Below, piece by piece: positions 3,298 to 10,267 of a stretch of 42,164 nucleotides of DNA. A program made the position numbers and the translations under genes. This DNA comes from Clostridiales bacterium (GTDB taxonomy: Bacteria; Bacillota; Clostridia; Oscillospirales; CAG-272): contig DURE01000026.1 in the NCBI GenBank assembly GCA_012837425.1, forward strand, positions 1 to 42,164, in the 5' to 3' direction. The notes beneath the pieces are model-generated. The model did no database searches and was not told where the DNA came from. It saw nothing but the letters and a program-made list of their open reading frames with translations. Each line of letters starts with the position of its first letter. Position 1 is the first letter of the stretch.

Positions 3298-3456
3298 GTG
3301 TTTGCCGAAAAATCATTATATCCAGTAGCCGTCCCTGACAGCGGCACAGGGCCCACAAAAATCGCTATCCGGCCTTATTTTCCGACAGCACAAAAGGCCG
3401 GGGAATGTGAATAATTGCAGGAAAATCCGAGTTTTATCTATACAAAAAAGAGCTAT

Positions 3457-3467
3457 TATGCTATAAT
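3457..3467 (+). promoter_or_regulatory. Extended -10 promoter of the rRNA methyltransferase gene
   Basis: TG at 3459-3460, one base, then TATAAT at 3462-3467 is an extended -10 element, 37 bases before the ATG. The -35 region is poor, as is common with extended -10 sites. Confidence 0.55.
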
Positions 3468-3504: not shown

Positions 3505-4329
3505 ATGAAAAAAAATACTGATAGCAAAAAGGAAAAACATAAAAATTTCAAAGAACCGGCGCCGGGGAGCAAAGCCGGCACACCGGCAGAGGGGGCGGTT
3601 GTTGGCCGGCGAGCCGTGCGGGAGCTGCTCAAATCCGGTCGGGAGATTGACAAGATATTTGTCCGCCGGGGCGAGCGCGAGGGCTCGATTACCGTCATTG
3701 TCGCCGAGGCGCGGGAGGCGGGGATACCTGTTGTCGAGGTCGAGCGGGCAAAGCTCGACTCACTCTCCGGGGGCGCCAACCACCAGGGCGTGGTGGCGAT
3801 GGCGGCCGAAAAGGAGTATTCGACGATACCCGATATTCTCAGGGTTGCCGAGTCGCGGGGCGAGGCGCCGCTTATTGTGATAGCCGACGGGATAACCGAC
3901 CCTTACAACCTCGGAACCCTGATTCGCTGCGCCGAGGGGGTAGGGGTTCACGGGTTGATAATCCCCAAGCGCCGGGCTTCGGGGCTAACCCCGCTGGTCA
4001 GCAAGGCCTCGGCCGGCGCCATTGAGCATCTGGCCATAGCAAAAGTGCCGAATATCGCTGCGGCTATTGAATACCTCAAATCACAGGGTTTCTGGATTTA
4101 TGCGGCCGATATGGGCGGCCGGGCTTATTACGAAACCGACTTTTCAGGTCCTGCTGCGATAGTTTTCGGGAACGAGGGAGAGGGAATTTCCCGGCTGGTG
4201 CTCGAGCGGTGTGATTTTATTGTCTCAATTCCGATGTACGGCAGGGTGGGGTCGCTTAATGTCTCGACAGCCGCGGCGGTGATTCTTGCCGAAGCCTCAA
4301 GACAGCACCATGCCGCAACCGGTGAATAA
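3505..4329 (+). CDS. rlmB: TrmH/SpoU-family 23S rRNA ribose methyltransferase (RlmB type)
   Basis: This SPOUT-fold enzyme is predicted to methylate the 2'-OH of a guanosine in 23S rRNA using S-adenosylmethionine. After a basic, low-complexity leader of about 30 residues comes the substrate-binding domain (VVGRRAVRELLKSGREIDKIFV). The catalytic domain follows with the three SpoU motifs: DPYNLGTLIRCAEGVGV (motif 1), VFGNEGEGISRLV (motif 2) and IPMYGRVGSLNVSTAAAVIL (motif 3). The length of 274 is slightly above the family norm because of the leader. In Bacillota this gene is commonly called rlmB or yacO. The exact target nucleotide cannot be read from sequence. Confidence 0.9.
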   Translation: MKKNTDSKKEKHKNFKEPAPGSKAGTPAEGAVVGRRAVRELLKSGREIDKIFVRRGEREGSITVIVAEAREAGIPVVEVERAKLDSLSGGANHQGVVAMAAEKEYSTIPDILRVAESRGEAPLIVIADGITDPYNLGTLIRCAEGVGVHGLIIPKRRASGLTPLVSKASAGAIEHLAIAKVPNIAAAIEYLKSQGFWIYAADMGGRAYYETDFSGPAAIVFGNEGEGISRLVLERCDFIVSIPMYGRVGSLNVSTAAAVILAEASRQHHAATGE

Positions 4330-4383: not shown

Positions 4384-7095
4384 ATGAACGATATGGGCGG
4401 AAAGAGTGTCAACGATAAGGACAGCCGCGAGATTGACGATATAATAAAACGCCTTCGGGAATCTGTCGGGGAGGGAAGGCCAAAGCCTCACGGGCGGGGG
4501 TATTCCTCCGGCAGCTTTGAGCAGAAGCTGGCCGAGCTGCTTGAAAAACATTTAAACGAAAAAAAAGATTCCGGCGAGCTCAGGGAAGACAGAGCCGAGT
4601 ATGCCGCCGACGACCTTGAAATAGTAAAAGAGGGCAACATCAGCTCCGAACTGCTCGAGCAGGCGACAAAACCTGATTTTGAAAGGGGCGGAAACAGGGC
4701 CGAAGCTGATGGCGGTGCCGATGCTACGTCCGGAGAACCGCAGCGCGAGCCGGAGAATGTTGTGGCCAGCGTGGAAACTCCGGCCCTGACCGACACCCGG
4801 CCGGCAGCTGCCGATGACCTTTTGGAGCCCGAGCCCTGGGAGGATTTGGCCGGGCAGGAAATGATGCCGGCAATCTTCCCGGACAAGCCGGATGAGGATA
4901 TAGTCGGGACATCCGGTCCCAAGGCCGGAGAACCGGAGTGTGATGACCAGCCTGCCGGGGGCGGCTGTGATTTGCGGGAGGACAACGACAATGAAGCGCT
5001 CTCTGCCGGCGGGTATGAGCCCTGTGTCGCACAGCCCGGGCAGGGGGACGAGGACGTTGTTTTATCAGCCGGGGAGTTTGGGGACGCTGATGCCGGGGAG
5101 CCGGAGGTTACCGGGGATGGCGGGGCCGGATTTGAGTTTTCGGTGCCTGTATCCGGGGCACAACCGCGACTCCAGTCCGACGCTCTGGCAGACGAGCCCG
5201 CAGACCCCGATACTTCCGGCAAGCAGGAAAGCGACGCAAAAACAGCGTCACAAAGTGAAAAAGATAAGCTCCAAATCAGCGAAGATGAAATGAATGTGAT
5301 GCTTGCGCTCGGATACGAGAAGGAGCTCGGTTCGCGTATCGGACAGGACAAGTTGAATGACATAAAACAGAACCTTAAGAATCACAAGGCAAAAACCGAA
5401 CAAAAACCGGCCGGCGACCAGCCTGTCGGCACCGAGTATACAAGCCATGGCCAGGATGCCGGGATAAAGCAGGACTGCCGCCGCCGGGTGCTTGAGGCCG
5501 GGTTCAGGCTCGCCGGAACTGTATTTATCGCGCTTTTGCTCGGGCTGCTTGAAAACCTCGGGTTTTTCGGGGTGCACATCCCGGGAATACCCTCCCCGTC
5601 AAGTCCGGTGTACTTTTCGCTGCTGGCAGGCGCGCTGCTGGCCTGCGCCACCGCAATGTCCTACAGCAGCCTTGCCGGGGGGCTCTGCGGGATATACAGG
5701 TTTTACCCCGAGCCCCATTCACTGAGCGCGCTGGCGGTGGTGCTGGCTGTGGTCCACAACCTTGCTATAATAATCATTCGCCCGGAGCAGGCGCAGCTTT
5801 ACAACTTCCCGGCGGCGCTCTGCCTTGTGATGTCGGCGCTCTCCGAGCTGCTTGACACACTTCGCGAGAAGAAAACCTTTGAGGTTATATCCTCGGACGA
5901 AAGAAGATACGGCCTGCAGCGCGCAAAGAGTGCCGGGGAGAAAATTCCGGTTTACAATGTCAGGTGTTCGAAGTTCACGTCCGGGTATGTCAGGCGCACG
6001 AACACGAAAAAGAAGGGCATTTACCTTTTGAATTATACTTTGGTTCCCGCACTCGTGGTCGGGGGTGTTATGGCGATTATCACCGCAGCCAGCACCGCCG
6101 ACGCCGCGGCGACACTTACGGCGCTTGTCGCGACGGTGTTTATCTGTCTGCCGGTTCCGGTCCTTTTGCTGGCATTGCCCCCGGCATACGCGGTGGCGCG
6201 GCTGAAAAAGCAGGGCTGCGCCCTTGTAGGGCTCTTGGGTGTTGAGGAATACTCAAAGGAGAAACTTATTGTCTTTGAGGATAGCGCCATGTTCCCGGTG
6301 CAGTGCATCCGCACCAAGGGGATAAAGCTCTATGATGGCTTTGAGATATACGACGTGCTGATGAAGGTCGGATCGCTCTTTTGTGTTATCGGCGGGCCGC
6401 TGGGCGAGATATTTGAGGGTGGCAGTGAAAGATACCGCCGGTTAAGCGATGTAAAGCTGATTCGGGTCGAGCGGGGAGGTGTCGAGGCGCAGGTTGGCGG
6501 GCTGCAGATGATTTGCGGCAACTATGATTTTGTGGAGAAATACGGGATCTACCCTAAACGGAATCCGCGTGACGAACAGCTTCTGGCCGCCGGCGAGGTG
6601 TCGATAATCTATATCGCCATAGACCGGCGGGCGGCGGCAAGGCTTTATATCGACTATAGGGTAGATCCGATATTTGAGGAGGCTGCACGAAGGCTCGCCG
6701 CCTGCAATTGCAGAGTCGCCATACGCACCTGCGACCCGGGAATTGACGAGGCGATGCTTGAGCGCAAGCGCAGCGAGGCTGCCTGCCGGGTGGAGATAAT
6801 CCGGACAGCCCCGGGCGGGCGGGAGCCTGAGGAGACTGTCGACTCGGGCATTGTCGCGCTCGGCTCGCCCTACAAACTTGCAGCCCCGCTCTGCGCCGTG
6901 GCAAAGCTGAGCAAAGTTCGCCGCCGAACCCTTGCAATGTCGCTCGGGGTGTTTATCCTGAATATCCTGCTCACGGCACTGCTTGCCGTGACCGGTCTTG
7001 TGACCTATGCCGTCTCGGGATTTGTCGGCCTTTACATGCTGCTCTGGACCCTGCCGGTCTGCCTTATGACATATCGTGCGCTCGGCGACGGTTAG
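4384..7095 (+). CDS. Degenerate P1B-type ATPase-like membrane protein with acidic N-terminal extension
   Basis: This 903-residue protein has three parts. Residues 1-60 are a charged helix. Residues 61-300 are acidic, Gly/Pro-rich and probably disordered. Residues 365-903 carry eight hydrophobic segments spaced as in heavy-metal P-type ATPases. TM6 has LPVPVLLLALPP (589-600) where the CPC motif would be. The phosphorylation loop DKTGT is replaced by FEDSAMFP (631-638). GGVEAQVGGLQMICGN (698-713) matches the P1B nucleotide-domain pattern GxGVxAxVxGxxxxxGN. RTCDPGID (781-788) stands where TGDN is expected. The TGE actuator motif and the HP dipeptide are missing. I infer an ATPase fold without catalytic turnover, perhaps a sensor or scaffold. 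AAAGGAG lies at 4371-4377. The fold assignment is by eye. Confidence 0.65.
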   Translation: MNDMGGKSVNDKDSREIDDIIKRLRESVGEGRPKPHGRGYSSGSFEQKLAELLEKHLNEKKDSGELREDRAEYAADDLEIVKEGNISSELLEQATKPDFERGGNRAEADGGADATSGEPQREPENVVASVETPALTDTRPAAADDLLEPEPWEDLAGQEMMPAIFPDKPDEDIVGTSGPKAGEPECDDQPAGGGCDLREDNDNEALSAGGYEPCVAQPGQGDEDVVLSAGEFGDADAGEPEVTGDGGAGFEFSVPVSGAQPRLQSDALADEPADPDTSGKQESDAKTASQSEKDKLQISEDEMNVMLALGYEKELGSRIGQDKLNDIKQNLKNHKAKTEQKPAGDQPVGTEYTSHGQDAGIKQDCRRRVLEAGFRLAGTVFIALLLGLLENLGFFGVHIPGIPSPSSPVYFSLLAGALLACATAMSYSSLAGGLCGIYRFYPEPHSLSALAVVLAVVHNLAIIIIRPEQAQLYNFPAALCLVMSALSELLDTLREKKTFEVISSDERRYGLQRAKSAGEKIPVYNVRCSKFTSGYVRRTNTKKKGIYLLNYTLVPALVVGGVMAIITAASTADAAATLTALVATVFICLPVPVLLLALPPAYAVARLKKQGCALVGLLGVEEYSKEKLIVFEDSAMFPVQCIRTKGIKLYDGFEIYDVLMKVGSLFCVIGGPLGEIFEGGSERYRRLSDVKLIRVERGGVEAQVGGLQMICGNYDFVEKYGIYPKRNPRDEQLLAAGEVSIIYIAIDRRAAARLYIDYRVDPIFEEAARRLAACNCRVAIRTCDPGIDEAMLERKRSEAACRVEIIRTAPGGREPEETVDSGIVALGSPYKLAAPLCAVAKLSKVRRRTLAMSLGVFILNILLTALLAVTGLVTYAVSGFVGLYMLLWTLPVCLMTYRALGDG

Positions 7096-7132: not shown

Positions 7133-9016
7133 ATGGAACAAAAAAAAGACATCCGCAAATTAAGCTCAGTACTCAGGTCGGTCTCAAAGCCGGGGAGATA
7201 TACCGGCGGCGAGTTCGGCGAGGTAATCAAAGAAAAATCAAATGTCAAGGCAAGGTTTGCCTTCTGCTTTCCCGACACGTATGAGATAGGCATGTCAAAT
7301 CTCGGCATGCGCATTCTGTACGGCCTGCTAAACGAGCAGCCCGACATCTGGTGCGAGCGGGCCTTCACCCCCTGGGTCGACATGGAGGAAAAACTGCGCG
7401 AGTACAATATACCCCTCACAACACTTGAGAGCGGCGACCCCTTAGGCGAGTTTGACATAGTCGGCTTTTCGCTGCAGTACGAGCTCTGCTACACCAACGT
7501 GCTGAACATGCTGAGTCTGGCAAATATCCCGCTGCGCGCCGCCGACCGGGGAGAGGGTACCCCGATAATAATCGGCGGCGGGCCCTGCACATACAACCCC
7601 GAGCCTCTGTCCGACTTTTTCGACTGCTTTGCCATAGGAGAAGGCGAGGAGCTGATAATTGAGTTTACCCGGCTGTATATTGAGATGAAGGAGAGCGGGG
7701 AGTACACCCGTGCCTCCTTTCTGCGCCGGGCAGCGGCCACAGTCGGCGGGATTTATGTTCCGTCGCTCTATGAGGTTTCATACAATGCCGACGGCACGAT
7801 AAGGGAGTATGCACCGGCCTGCGGCGCCATACCTCCGCGCGTGAGGAGGCGGGTAGTCTCAGACCTTGACGCCGCATACTTCCCGCGCCGGCTGGTAATG
7901 CCCTATATTGAGACGGTGCACGACCGCATTATGCTTGAGATTGCCCGGGGCTGCATACGTGGCTGCCGCTTCTGTCAGTCCGGGATGGTCTGCCGGCCGA
8001 TGCGCGAGCGGTCGCCGGAGCTGCTTTGCGGGCAGGCAAGGGCGCTCTTTGAGGCCACCGGATACGATGAAATATCGCTCTCCTCGCTCTCGGTCAGCGA
8101 CTACACAAGACTCCCCGAGCTTACCGGGCGTCTGCTTGACTGGACAGATGAGCACATGGTCAGCCTGTCGCTGCCCTCGCTGCGGGTCGACAGCTTCTCG
8201 GTGGAGCTGATGGAGAAGGCGGCGTCGGTGCGGACCTCGGCCCTTACTTTCGCGCCCGAGGCCGGGACCCAGCGGCTGCGCGACGTGATAAACAAAAACG
8301 TGACCGAAGAGGACATTCTGAGAGCCGCGAAAGCGGCCTTCGGGTTCGGGAAAACCTCGGTAAAACTTTATTTTATGCAGGGGCTTCCGACCGAAACCCT
8401 CGAGGACCTTGACGGGATTGCGGCGGTGGCGCGGGCTGTGGTCGGGGAATACTACCGGAGCCCGGGCCGGCCGAAGGGAAGGCGGCCGACTGTCACGGTC
8501 AGCGTGTCGAACTTCATCCCCAAGCCCTTTACCCCCTTTCAGTGGGAGGCGCAGGACAGCCCGGAGCTGCTGCGCGAAAAGCAGGAATACCTGAAATATA
8601 AGCTCGGAGACCGTAATATTCGTTATCAGTACCACGATGTCGGAACCTCGCATGTCGAGGCTGTGCTGGCGCGCGGGGACAGAAGGCTCTCGGCCGCGCT
8701 TGAGCTTGCCTGCCAAAAGGGCTTTCACTTTGACGCCTGGGACGAGCATTTTGACTACGGGCGCTGGCTTGAGGTTTTTGAGTGTGCCGGAATTGACCCG
8801 TCCTTTTATGCCAACCGCGAGTACCAACCAGATGAAGTGCTGCCCTGGGATATTATTGATGCCGGAGTGACAAAAAAGTTCCTTTGGCGCGAGCGCGAGC
8901 GGGCATATCAGGGGAAAACCACGCTAAACTGCCGCCAGAGCTGCTCGGGCTGCGGCGCAAACCGGCTTGCGACGGGCTTATGCCGGCCGTGTGGGGGTGC
9001 TAGTGAAACTGACTGA
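7133..9016 (+). CDS. TIGR03960-family B12-binding-type radical SAM protein
   Basis: This is a radical S-adenosylmethionine protein of the widespread Clostridia family TIGR03960; its reaction is not known. The N-terminal half resembles the B12-binding fold (DIVGFSLQYELCYTNVLNML, then a Gly-rich IIIGGGPCTYNP). The radical SAM core begins at RGCIRGCRFC, giving the [4Fe-4S] cysteines at about residues 274, 278 and 281. A further Cys cluster, CRQSCSGCG, closes the protein. I prefer the ATG at 7133, giving 627 residues, because an upstream in-frame start at 7076 would overlap the preceding gene. The next gene overlaps its 3' end and encodes the usual partner, so the two are translationally coupled. 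Confidence 0.88.
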   Translation: MEQKKDIRKLSSVLRSVSKPGRYTGGEFGEVIKEKSNVKARFAFCFPDTYEIGMSNLGMRILYGLLNEQPDIWCERAFTPWVDMEEKLREYNIPLTTLESGDPLGEFDIVGFSLQYELCYTNVLNMLSLANIPLRAADRGEGTPIIIGGGPCTYNPEPLSDFFDCFAIGEGEELIIEFTRLYIEMKESGEYTRASFLRRAAATVGGIYVPSLYEVSYNADGTIREYAPACGAIPPRVRRRVVSDLDAAYFPRRLVMPYIETVHDRIMLEIARGCIRGCRFCQSGMVCRPMRERSPELLCGQARALFEATGYDEISLSSLSVSDYTRLPELTGRLLDWTDEHMVSLSLPSLRVDSFSVELMEKAASVRTSALTFAPEAGTQRLRDVINKNVTEEDILRAAKAAFGFGKTSVKLYFMQGLPTETLEDLDGIAAVARAVVGEYYRSPGRPKGRRPTVTVSVSNFIPKPFTPFQWEAQDSPELLREKQEYLKYKLGDRNIRYQYHDVGTSHVEAVLARGDRRLSAALELACQKGFHFDAWDEHFDYGRWLEVFECAGIDPSFYANREYQPDEVLPWDIIDAGVTKKFLWRERERAYQGKTTLNCRQSCSGCGANRLATGLCRPCGGASETD

Positions 9017-9716
9017 GAAGAATATCAGAGCCACGGTGCCGCGTGTGGTACGAATTAAGTTTATTAAGGTCGGGTCGCTGCAGTATATCTCGCACCTTGA
9101 CCTGCAGCGCACCATGGCGCGCGTGCTTGCCCGGACTAAAATCCCGGTCTGGTATACCGAGGGATTCAACCCGCATATAAAGCTGGTTTTCGCGGTGCCA
9201 CTTGCCGTGGGGGTCGAGAGTATTTGCGAATTTCTCGACATCAGAATAACCGGGGACATCTCCTGTGAGGAGATAGTCGAAAGGGTCAATGCCGGGCTGA
9301 CGAGTGAGCTCCGTGTAATCGAGGCTTATTATCCCGAAACCAGATTCTCGGATATTGAGGCGGCAGACTATATTTACAAAATAAAAACCGTCGGCGCGGG
9401 ATATGAGCTGGCCGACCGGATAAAGAGGTTTCTCACAACGCCGCCGGTAATGGTGACAAGGAAAACCAAGTCGGGCGAGCGGGATGTTGACATTGCTCAA
9501 GCGATAAGCCGGCTTGTGGTTTCATACTCTAAGGCCGAGGGGGGCATTGAAATGACGGCAAGACTGCCGGCCGGCAGCAGGCTTAGCATCAACCCCGCGC
9601 TGCCGCTTGACGCGCTGCGCAGTCGGGGGTTGGCGCTCGCCGGCGACATAACGAAAGAAAGTTACTCCATTATGCGCGTCCGGCTGCTTTTTGCCGACGG
9701 GAGAGAATTCAAATGA
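9003..9716 (+). CDS. DUF2344 / TIGR03936-family radical-SAM-associated protein
   Basis: This protein of unknown function almost always accompanies TIGR03960 radical SAM proteins, sometimes fused to them. The family signature is clear: IKFIKVGSLQYISHLDLQRTM at the start, then IPVWYTEGFNPHIKL and VGVESICEFLDI. The start is uncertain. GTG codons at 8991, 8997, 9003, 9036 and 9045 are all in frame. I picked 9003, which follows a G-rich stretch and overlaps the upstream stop by 14 bases. Homology proper begins near residue 13. In many relatives the next genes are rng and rplU; neither is here. Confidence 0.82.
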   Translation: MKLTEKNIRATVPRVVRIKFIKVGSLQYISHLDLQRTMARVLARTKIPVWYTEGFNPHIKLVFAVPLAVGVESICEFLDIRITGDISCEEIVERVNAGLTSELRVIEAYYPETRFSDIEAADYIYKIKTVGAGYELADRIKRFLTTPPVMVTRKTKSGERDVDIAQAISRLVVSYSKAEGGIEMTARLPAGSRLSINPALPLDALRSRGLALAGDITKESYSIMRVRLLFADGREFK

Positions 9717-10267
9717 TGGGGGGCTGTATGACCGGCAAAGATTATAATCCGGATTATGTAAAACAATGCCGCAGGCGGGCAAGATTTGAAAAAATAAAAT
9801 TTCTTTTGTTCTGGCTTGTCCCGCTGATAATCTTTTTGGCATTTGTCATATGGCTGGCGTCTCATTTTCTGCTAAGGAACGCCTGGCAGAAGTTTGGCTG
9901 GGAGCTGGCCTGGGACATGGTCTACGCCAGGGAGCAGGACTCGGCGCGGGTGACCTATGTAGGCGGGGATGTGCGCCTGTCCGACCATAACTGTAGTAGC
10001 GTGTATAAGCTGATATTGGACGCCGACCCGACCGGGATATATTTAAGCAGGGGCGACAAGGCCATACATATTGATTTCGGAAACGGGCATACGCTGGATA
10101 TTGTCAATACCGGTGGTGACCGCTGCGCCGTGGTATACCGCGGCGAGAAAAACTACAGGTTCAGGATAGGGTTTCAGGGGATGTTCAGCAAGCTTGAAAA
10201 GGTTACAAGCCTTGAGGGCGGCAGCGTTCCGAACTCCCGATGGGATGAGGGCGAGGCAACCGAATAG
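9713..10267 (+). CDS. Small single-pass membrane protein, unknown
   Basis: I do not recognise this 184-residue protein. Residues 1-25 are polar and basic, residues 29-52 form one strong transmembrane helix (FLLFWLVPLIIFLAFVIWLA), and the rest is soluble and beta-rich. The positive residues before the helix suggest the C-terminal domain lies outside. The ATG at 9713 overlaps the upstream stop (ATGA). A second in-frame ATG at 9728, after a G-run, is an equally good start. It closes the run of genes beginning at 7133 and occupies the place where rng would often be found. A terminator follows at 10505. Confidence 0.65.
   Translation: MMGGCMTGKDYNPDYVKQCRRRARFEKIKFLLFWLVPLIIFLAFVIWLASHFLLRNAWQKFGWELAWDMVYAREQDSARVTYVGGDVRLSDHNCSSVYKLILDADPTGIYLSRGDKAIHIDFGNGHTLDIVNTGGDRCAVVYRGEKNYRFRIGFQGMFSKLEKVTSLEGGSVPNSRWDEGEATE

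Follow-up and report, generated by a model that had tools for sequence, protein, structure and literature searches.

An order-wide family of putatively non-catalytic P1B-type ATPases in the Oscillospirales

What becomes of a heavy-metal pump when its fold is kept and its catalytic motifs are not? The question is raised by an open reading frame in a contig of 42,164 nucleotides from a Clostridiales bacterium (DURE01000026.1; the window, meaning the whole stretch of DNA that was analysed). The frame starts with ATG, with a Shine-Dalgarno-like AAAGGAG directly 5′ of the start codon, and its 903-residue product has a P1B-type ATPase body behind an acidic head that is largely unstructured and about 350 residues long (Table 1). 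No family name is available from Pfam or NCBIfam models. In particular, scans of the 903-residue protein, 29 relatives and 10 divergent members with both collections returned nothing above any cut-off, and no recognised signalling domain was found attached to the protein by family scan. For PF00122 (E1-E2_ATPase; gathering score 28.1 bits) the protein had no match and the gathering criterion was not met; the best E-value among the 29 relatives was 0.063, and none of the 10 divergent members matched. A single-sequence phmmer search of the PDB with the entire protein likewise gave no match.

Table 1. Positions of the gene, its parts and its neighbours within the window.
Feature	Position	Strand	Remarks
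Promoter-like site 5′ of rlmB, 10/12	3439..3467	+	Consensus match, little above shuffled expectation
rlmB, 23S rRNA Gm2251 methyltransferase, upstream neighbour	3505..4329	+	TIGR00186, E = 8.6e-64
Pseudo-P1B-ATPase gene	4384..7095	+	903 codons and stop; homologues in 185/197 genomes of the order
Acidic, largely disordered head (inferred), residues 1-354	4384..5445	+	Replaces the metal-binding domains of P1B pumps
Head motif A, residues 16-28, EIDDIIKRLRESV	4429..4467	+	By eye and regular expression, no statistics
Head motif B, residues 299-320, SEDEMNVMLALGYEKELGSRIG	5278..5343	+	Majority consensus of alignment A3
Helices MA, MB (kinked), M1 and M2, residues 355-502	5446..5889	+	AlphaFold2 helices (predicted)
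Actuator (A) domain remnant	5890..6015	+	TGE absent; 64 residues vs 140 in the genome's CopA
Helices M3 and M4; M4 breaks next to Pro590	6016..6210	+	CPC place reads L-P-V
Pseudo-phosphorylation site FEDSAMFP, residues 631-638	6274..6297	+	Replaces FDKTGTLT; 139-homologue alignment
N-domain, fold kept, ATP-contact residues replaced	6307..6657	+	Menkes N-domain match, Z 14.0
TCDPGID, residues 782-788, remodelled TGDN motif	6727..6747	+	D 138/139, T 118/139, P 116/139
Shortened P-domain segment, contains DSGIV, without PEDK and GDGxND	6751..6861	+	53 residues vs 89 in CopA
Helices M5 and M6, YN and MxxSS metal-site motifs absent	6868..7086	+	Trp888 conserved
TIGR03960 B12-binding radical SAM protein, downstream neighbour	7133..9016	+	E = 1.5e-268

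Profile searches and structure prediction place the body among the copper pumps. A family profile built from 29 homologues (A1) matched LpCopA in the PDB (3rfu, E = 5.1e-15) and the ATP-binding domain of CopB (AfCopB, E = 1.7e-6), and its alignment by hhalign with the two canonical P1B ATPases of the same genome gave a probability of 96% and an E-value of 1.9e-9. The AlphaFold2 model of residues 285-903, calculated from 66 input sequences, has a mean pLDDT of 88.5 and a pTM of 0.82, and copper-transporting P1B ATPases take the top rank in a Foldseek search with it (E = 2.5e-16). VIA-align superposes 474 residues of the model on 3rfu with a Z-score of 22.5 and an rmsd of 8.7 Å, and this large rmsd is read as a difference in the predicted domain orientation; the N-domain, aligned with that of the Menkes protein (2kmv), gives a Z-score of 14.0 and an rmsd of 2.6 Å over 119 residues. 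The predicted membrane part has eight helices, which run as MA, MB and M1-M6, with a kink in MB, where Gly433 is kept in 123 of 139 homologues. The eight-helix plan of heavy-metal P-type ATPases, which the earlier note had proposed from the sequence, is therefore found in the model as well, and structure prediction returned the P1B-ATPase fold and not a different one.

Sequence homology and the eight-helix, P-domain and N-domain fold together satisfy the criteria for membership of the P1B branch. The same MA-MB-M1-M6 plan, with M4 broken at a Pro, is found in LpCopA (PDB 3rfu/4bbj) and in the CopA of the same genome (G000:C65), and the P/N headpiece fold and detectable sequence homology are held in common with CopA-type P1B-1 ATPases. 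Unlike CopA, the window protein is without DKTGT, TGE, CPC, SEHP, PEDK and GDGxND, half of its A-domain is missing, and an acidic head stands in place of the metal-binding domains. A P-type fold is also shared with KdpB (Z up to 14.7), which, unlike the window protein, is an active pump subunit with DKTGT and part of KdpFABC.

The extent of these losses was counted in an alignment of 139 homologues that represent most of the order's 25 family groups and include 31 members from about 19 other groups. DKTGT is in place in none of them. In the window protein the site reads FEDSAMFP, and the profile-profile alignment to the genome's own P1B ATPases pairs EDSAM with DKTGT. The acceptor position holds Asp in 82 homologues and Glu in 16, most others having Ala, Ser, Asn, Thr or Arg, while the position of the DKTGT Lys is Asp in 128; the Phe and Pro of the site are present in 124 and 126, respectively. 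Because Asp remains at the acceptor position in 82 homologues, it is from the other motifs that a loss of phosphorylation is inferred: Asp in place of the Lys, together with deletion of the Mg loop, makes phosphorylation very unlikely even where the acceptor Asp is kept. This deletion adds to the earlier reading: the GDGxND columns are gaps in all 139 homologues, so that the loop is removed and not merely changed. PEDK is not retained in the family alignment.

The remaining catalytic and metal-site motifs fare no better. TGE is absent, and the A-domain segment, with 140 residues in CopA, is reduced to 64 in the window protein and to a median of 77 in the family. The CPC site reads L-P590-V; its Pro is kept in 129 of the 139 homologues, both Cys are lost in every one, and no CPC-, CPH- or SPC-type motif is found in any of them. 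The predicted M4 helix breaks at model residues 305-306. The replacement of DKTGT and CPC and the absence of TGE are thus as the earlier note had described them. Its nucleotide-domain pattern held only in part: the pattern is present, but the residues that contact ATP are gone, the Glu having become Phe in 108 homologues and the His of SEHP having become Gly (Gly671 in the window protein) in 115. None of the defining motifs of a functional P-type ATPase (DKTGT, TGE and GDGxND) is therefore met, and neither are the two of a functional P1B pump (a CPx site in M4 and the nucleotide-binding SEHP). Other positions have become conserved within the family, namely the Phe and Pro of D..vFP, GGPL, Tyr758 (136 of 139), the nearly invariant Asp784 (138), Trp888 (128) and the Asn and Ile of DPNI, a set summarised as [DE]D..vFP, GGPL and T.DPNI.

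The same losses are spread across an entire order. A homologue was found in 57 of 59 related genomes, and the wider sample of the Oscillospirales gave one match in 185 of 197 genomes and in 111 of 116 genera; family strength was defined as E ≤ 1e-20 in the order-, class- and phylum-wide searches. Family-strength matches in a class sample of 293 genomes were confined to the same order, and a phylum sample of 299 genomes gave four matches at 1e-20, all inside it. Sixteen of the closest matches beyond the order, drawn from the class sample, are all intact P1B pumps with DKTGT, TGE and GDGxND. The named records of the relatives are all metagenome-assembled genomes, mostly from ruminant guts and digesters, with titles such as Oscillospiraceae, Ruminococcus, Lachnospiraceae, Clostridia, Eubacteriales or similar. 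In a quick maximum-likelihood tree, 48 pseudo-pump and 18 canonical sequences are split by one branch (SH-aLRT 99), the pattern that one loss of catalysis would leave; the tree has long branches and comes from the quick search only.

A chance reading frame is excluded by this distribution. Moreover, dN/dS between the window protein and that of a species of the same genus is 0.23-0.26 in the body, which indicates purifying selection, and a pseudoenzyme, taken as a conserved and selected protein without the catalytic motifs of its fold, is what these data describe. No family member, close or distant, has DKTGT, which makes this an old conserved pseudoenzyme and not a decaying copy. The earlier note had named a shared loss of DKTGT and purifying selection as the tests of its proposal; both were passed, and its conserved non-catalytic P-type ATPase is supported, with catalytic inactivity itself inferred from the sequence.

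A second P-type-like protein is encoded in the same genome (L188:1159-3537, at G000:C7:17001-19379; L188/L189). Its A-domain is recognisable (PF00122, 47-51 bits), it is nearest to the P2 Ca-ATPases (TIGR01522), and the place of DKTGT reads NDGAF, with TGE and GDGxND absent. It thus lacks the same three motifs as the pseudo-P1B protein but differs in keeping its A-domain and in being P2-like, and a separate origin is inferred. Other genera of the order have similar motif-less proteins too (L190, L191, L192, L198, L202, L203 and L208).

No report of a bacterial pseudo-P-type ATPase was found in the open-licence literature searched, an absence that is not proof. A keyword search of a 2023 review of P-type ATPases (PMC10654040) found nothing on inactive or non-catalytic members. 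Plasmodium falciparum guanylyl cyclase beta (PfGC-beta; PMC6592433) provides the nearest published analogue found, a degenerate P4-ATPase domain. That domain is eukaryotic, of the P4 class and fused to a cyclase, whereas the present family is bacterial, of the P1B class, stand-alone and order-wide.

The head had been described as long, acidic and disordered. Its acidity is plain, with 85 Asp and Glu against 38 Lys and Arg in residues 1-365, and the heads of 75 relatives have a median length of 317 residues, with 29% Asp and Glu and 10% Lys and Arg; the evidence for disorder is indirect, namely the composition and the low pLDDT of the first residues of the model, which covers residues 285-903 only. 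It is not featureless, since short motifs are common to the relatives. Motif A is the counterpart of xxDELLxxLK / DIQxLLxKYLP in relatives, and motif B, located before the membrane part, is that of D.TD.NLM.AFGM..EL....G and is mostly helical in the AlphaFold2 model (block pLDDT 71-86). The head evolves fast, with dN/dS of 0.41-0.59 between the window protein and that of a species of the same genus. Some relatives (L085, L100, L102 and L104) have heads of 700-870 residues within proteins of 1285-1447 residues, and head length is thus weakly constrained.

The genomic neighbourhood is stable upstream. The rlmB gene ends 54 bases before the pseudo-pump gene and precedes it in most loci, in the majority of the order's family groups; no terminator-like site was found on the + strand between the two, and they are probably co-transcribed. 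Downstream, the window's own bacterial family has genes for the radical SAM protein (TIGR03960) and for a DUF2344 protein, and other family groups often have an elongation-factor-G-like gene (named from its sequence, without a family scan). No recurring metal genes were seen near the pseudo-pump loci, and the neighbours do not reveal a pathway. In many relatives rlmB is itself preceded by genes for DUF4364, a sigma-70-like factor and a double treble-clef zinc-finger protein in a row (L042:1337-2910), possibly a conserved housekeeping cluster. Within the window's own bacterial family, a membrane-protein-like frame, which we take to be DUF421-like, is often encoded on the opposite strand, downstream and a few genes away (L106:9808-10668 and similar). 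Behind the DUF2344 gene, window positions 9713-10267 encode a protein of 184 residues that has a single apparent membrane helix and matches no NCBIfam family.

That these proteins are catalytically dead P1B-type ATPases, and that they form an old family spread across the order in single copy, is held with high confidence, although the loss of activity is inferred from motifs and a predicted structure, without enzymology. Their function is much less certain. Every part for ATP use or metal movement is gone, which makes a scaffold or a sensor probable; the earlier note's suggestion of such a role remains an inference. Under the explanation preferred here, the pseudo-pump would neither hydrolyse ATP nor pump metal, and would be a membrane-anchored scaffold or receptor in a core task other than sporulation. 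The rebuilt P-domain pocket and the N-domain would be the binding site of a partner or of a small ligand. Soluble partners would be captured at the inner membrane face by the head, which is long and acidic and contains short helical motifs, and the membrane body would serve as an anchor and perhaps as a sensor. Against it, there is no known partner, ligand or phenotype, and the head is fast-evolving, with motifs that lack statistical support. The scaffold or receptor mechanism is accordingly tentative, falling slightly short of an even call, and the whole statement, from dead P1B family to scaffold or receptor in a core non-sporulation task, stands at an even balance.

The rival that survives best is a ligand sensor without scaffold function, in which the cavity or the P/N pocket would bind a metal ion, a lipid or a nucleotide and the head would signal. 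Retention of the whole fold, of the M4 break at a conserved Pro and of near-invariant Asp784 speaks for this reading, which is doubtful even so, as both Cys of CPC, YN, MxxSS and the ATP-contact Glu and His are gone and no recognised signalling domain is attached. Further, dead paralogues often regulate live ones, and the pseudo-pump could be a regulatory subunit that pairs with the canonical P1B pump CopA and modulates it; at E ≤ 1e-60, a canonical P1B ATPase is present as well in 97 of 98 genomes of the order. The 14 control genomes, though, most of which are distant from the order, all have canonical pumps, which makes the co-occurrence uninformative. Metal genes were not seen linked to the pseudo-pump, and one draft genome (G433) has the pseudo-pump (1e-25) without a canonical pump at 1e-60, leaving the subunit unlikely. 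Residual passive transport, as a channel or lipid scramblase that uses the old membrane path without ATP, would account for the complete eight-helix membrane domain but not for the conserved headpiece and the head, and the known metal-site residues are not kept; it is given little credence. Subunit, pure sensor and passive channel are not excluded.

A sporulation protein is less likely again. Spo0A occurs in 92 and SpoIVA in 90 of 98 genomes of the order, but the pseudo-pump is kept in seven of eight SpoIVA-negative and in all six Spo0A-negative genomes, and the remainder of the class (293-genome sample), which includes spore-formers, gave no family-strength match. Occurrence tied to sporulation alone is rejected, as four genomes without Spo0A and SpoIVA matches (G023, G347, G364 and G374) keep the gene. 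Finally, a recently broken pump whose frame is open by chance, for which the loss of all catalytic motifs and the fast sequence evolution could be cited, is rejected with near certainty, given open frames with the same losses in 185 of 197 genomes of the order, purifying selection and newly conserved residues.

What appears to be new is a family of pseudoenzymes with the P1B fold. Few membrane machines have been studied as thoroughly as P-type ATPases, and no report was found of a bacterial family that has lost catalysis and kept the whole body. It is conceivable, though doubtful, that copper-pump ATPases and, in a separate event, P2-type ATPases became non-catalytic membrane receptors across a whole order, with disordered arms for capture, and make up a new class of membrane scaffold in the core genome. 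The losses are uniform across the sampled family groups, which makes the family a natural test of the P-type fold without ATP. The pseudo-pump is a near-universal, unnamed core gene of bacteria that are common in ruminant and other gut metagenomes, and its removal in a tractable member would therefore be a direct experiment.
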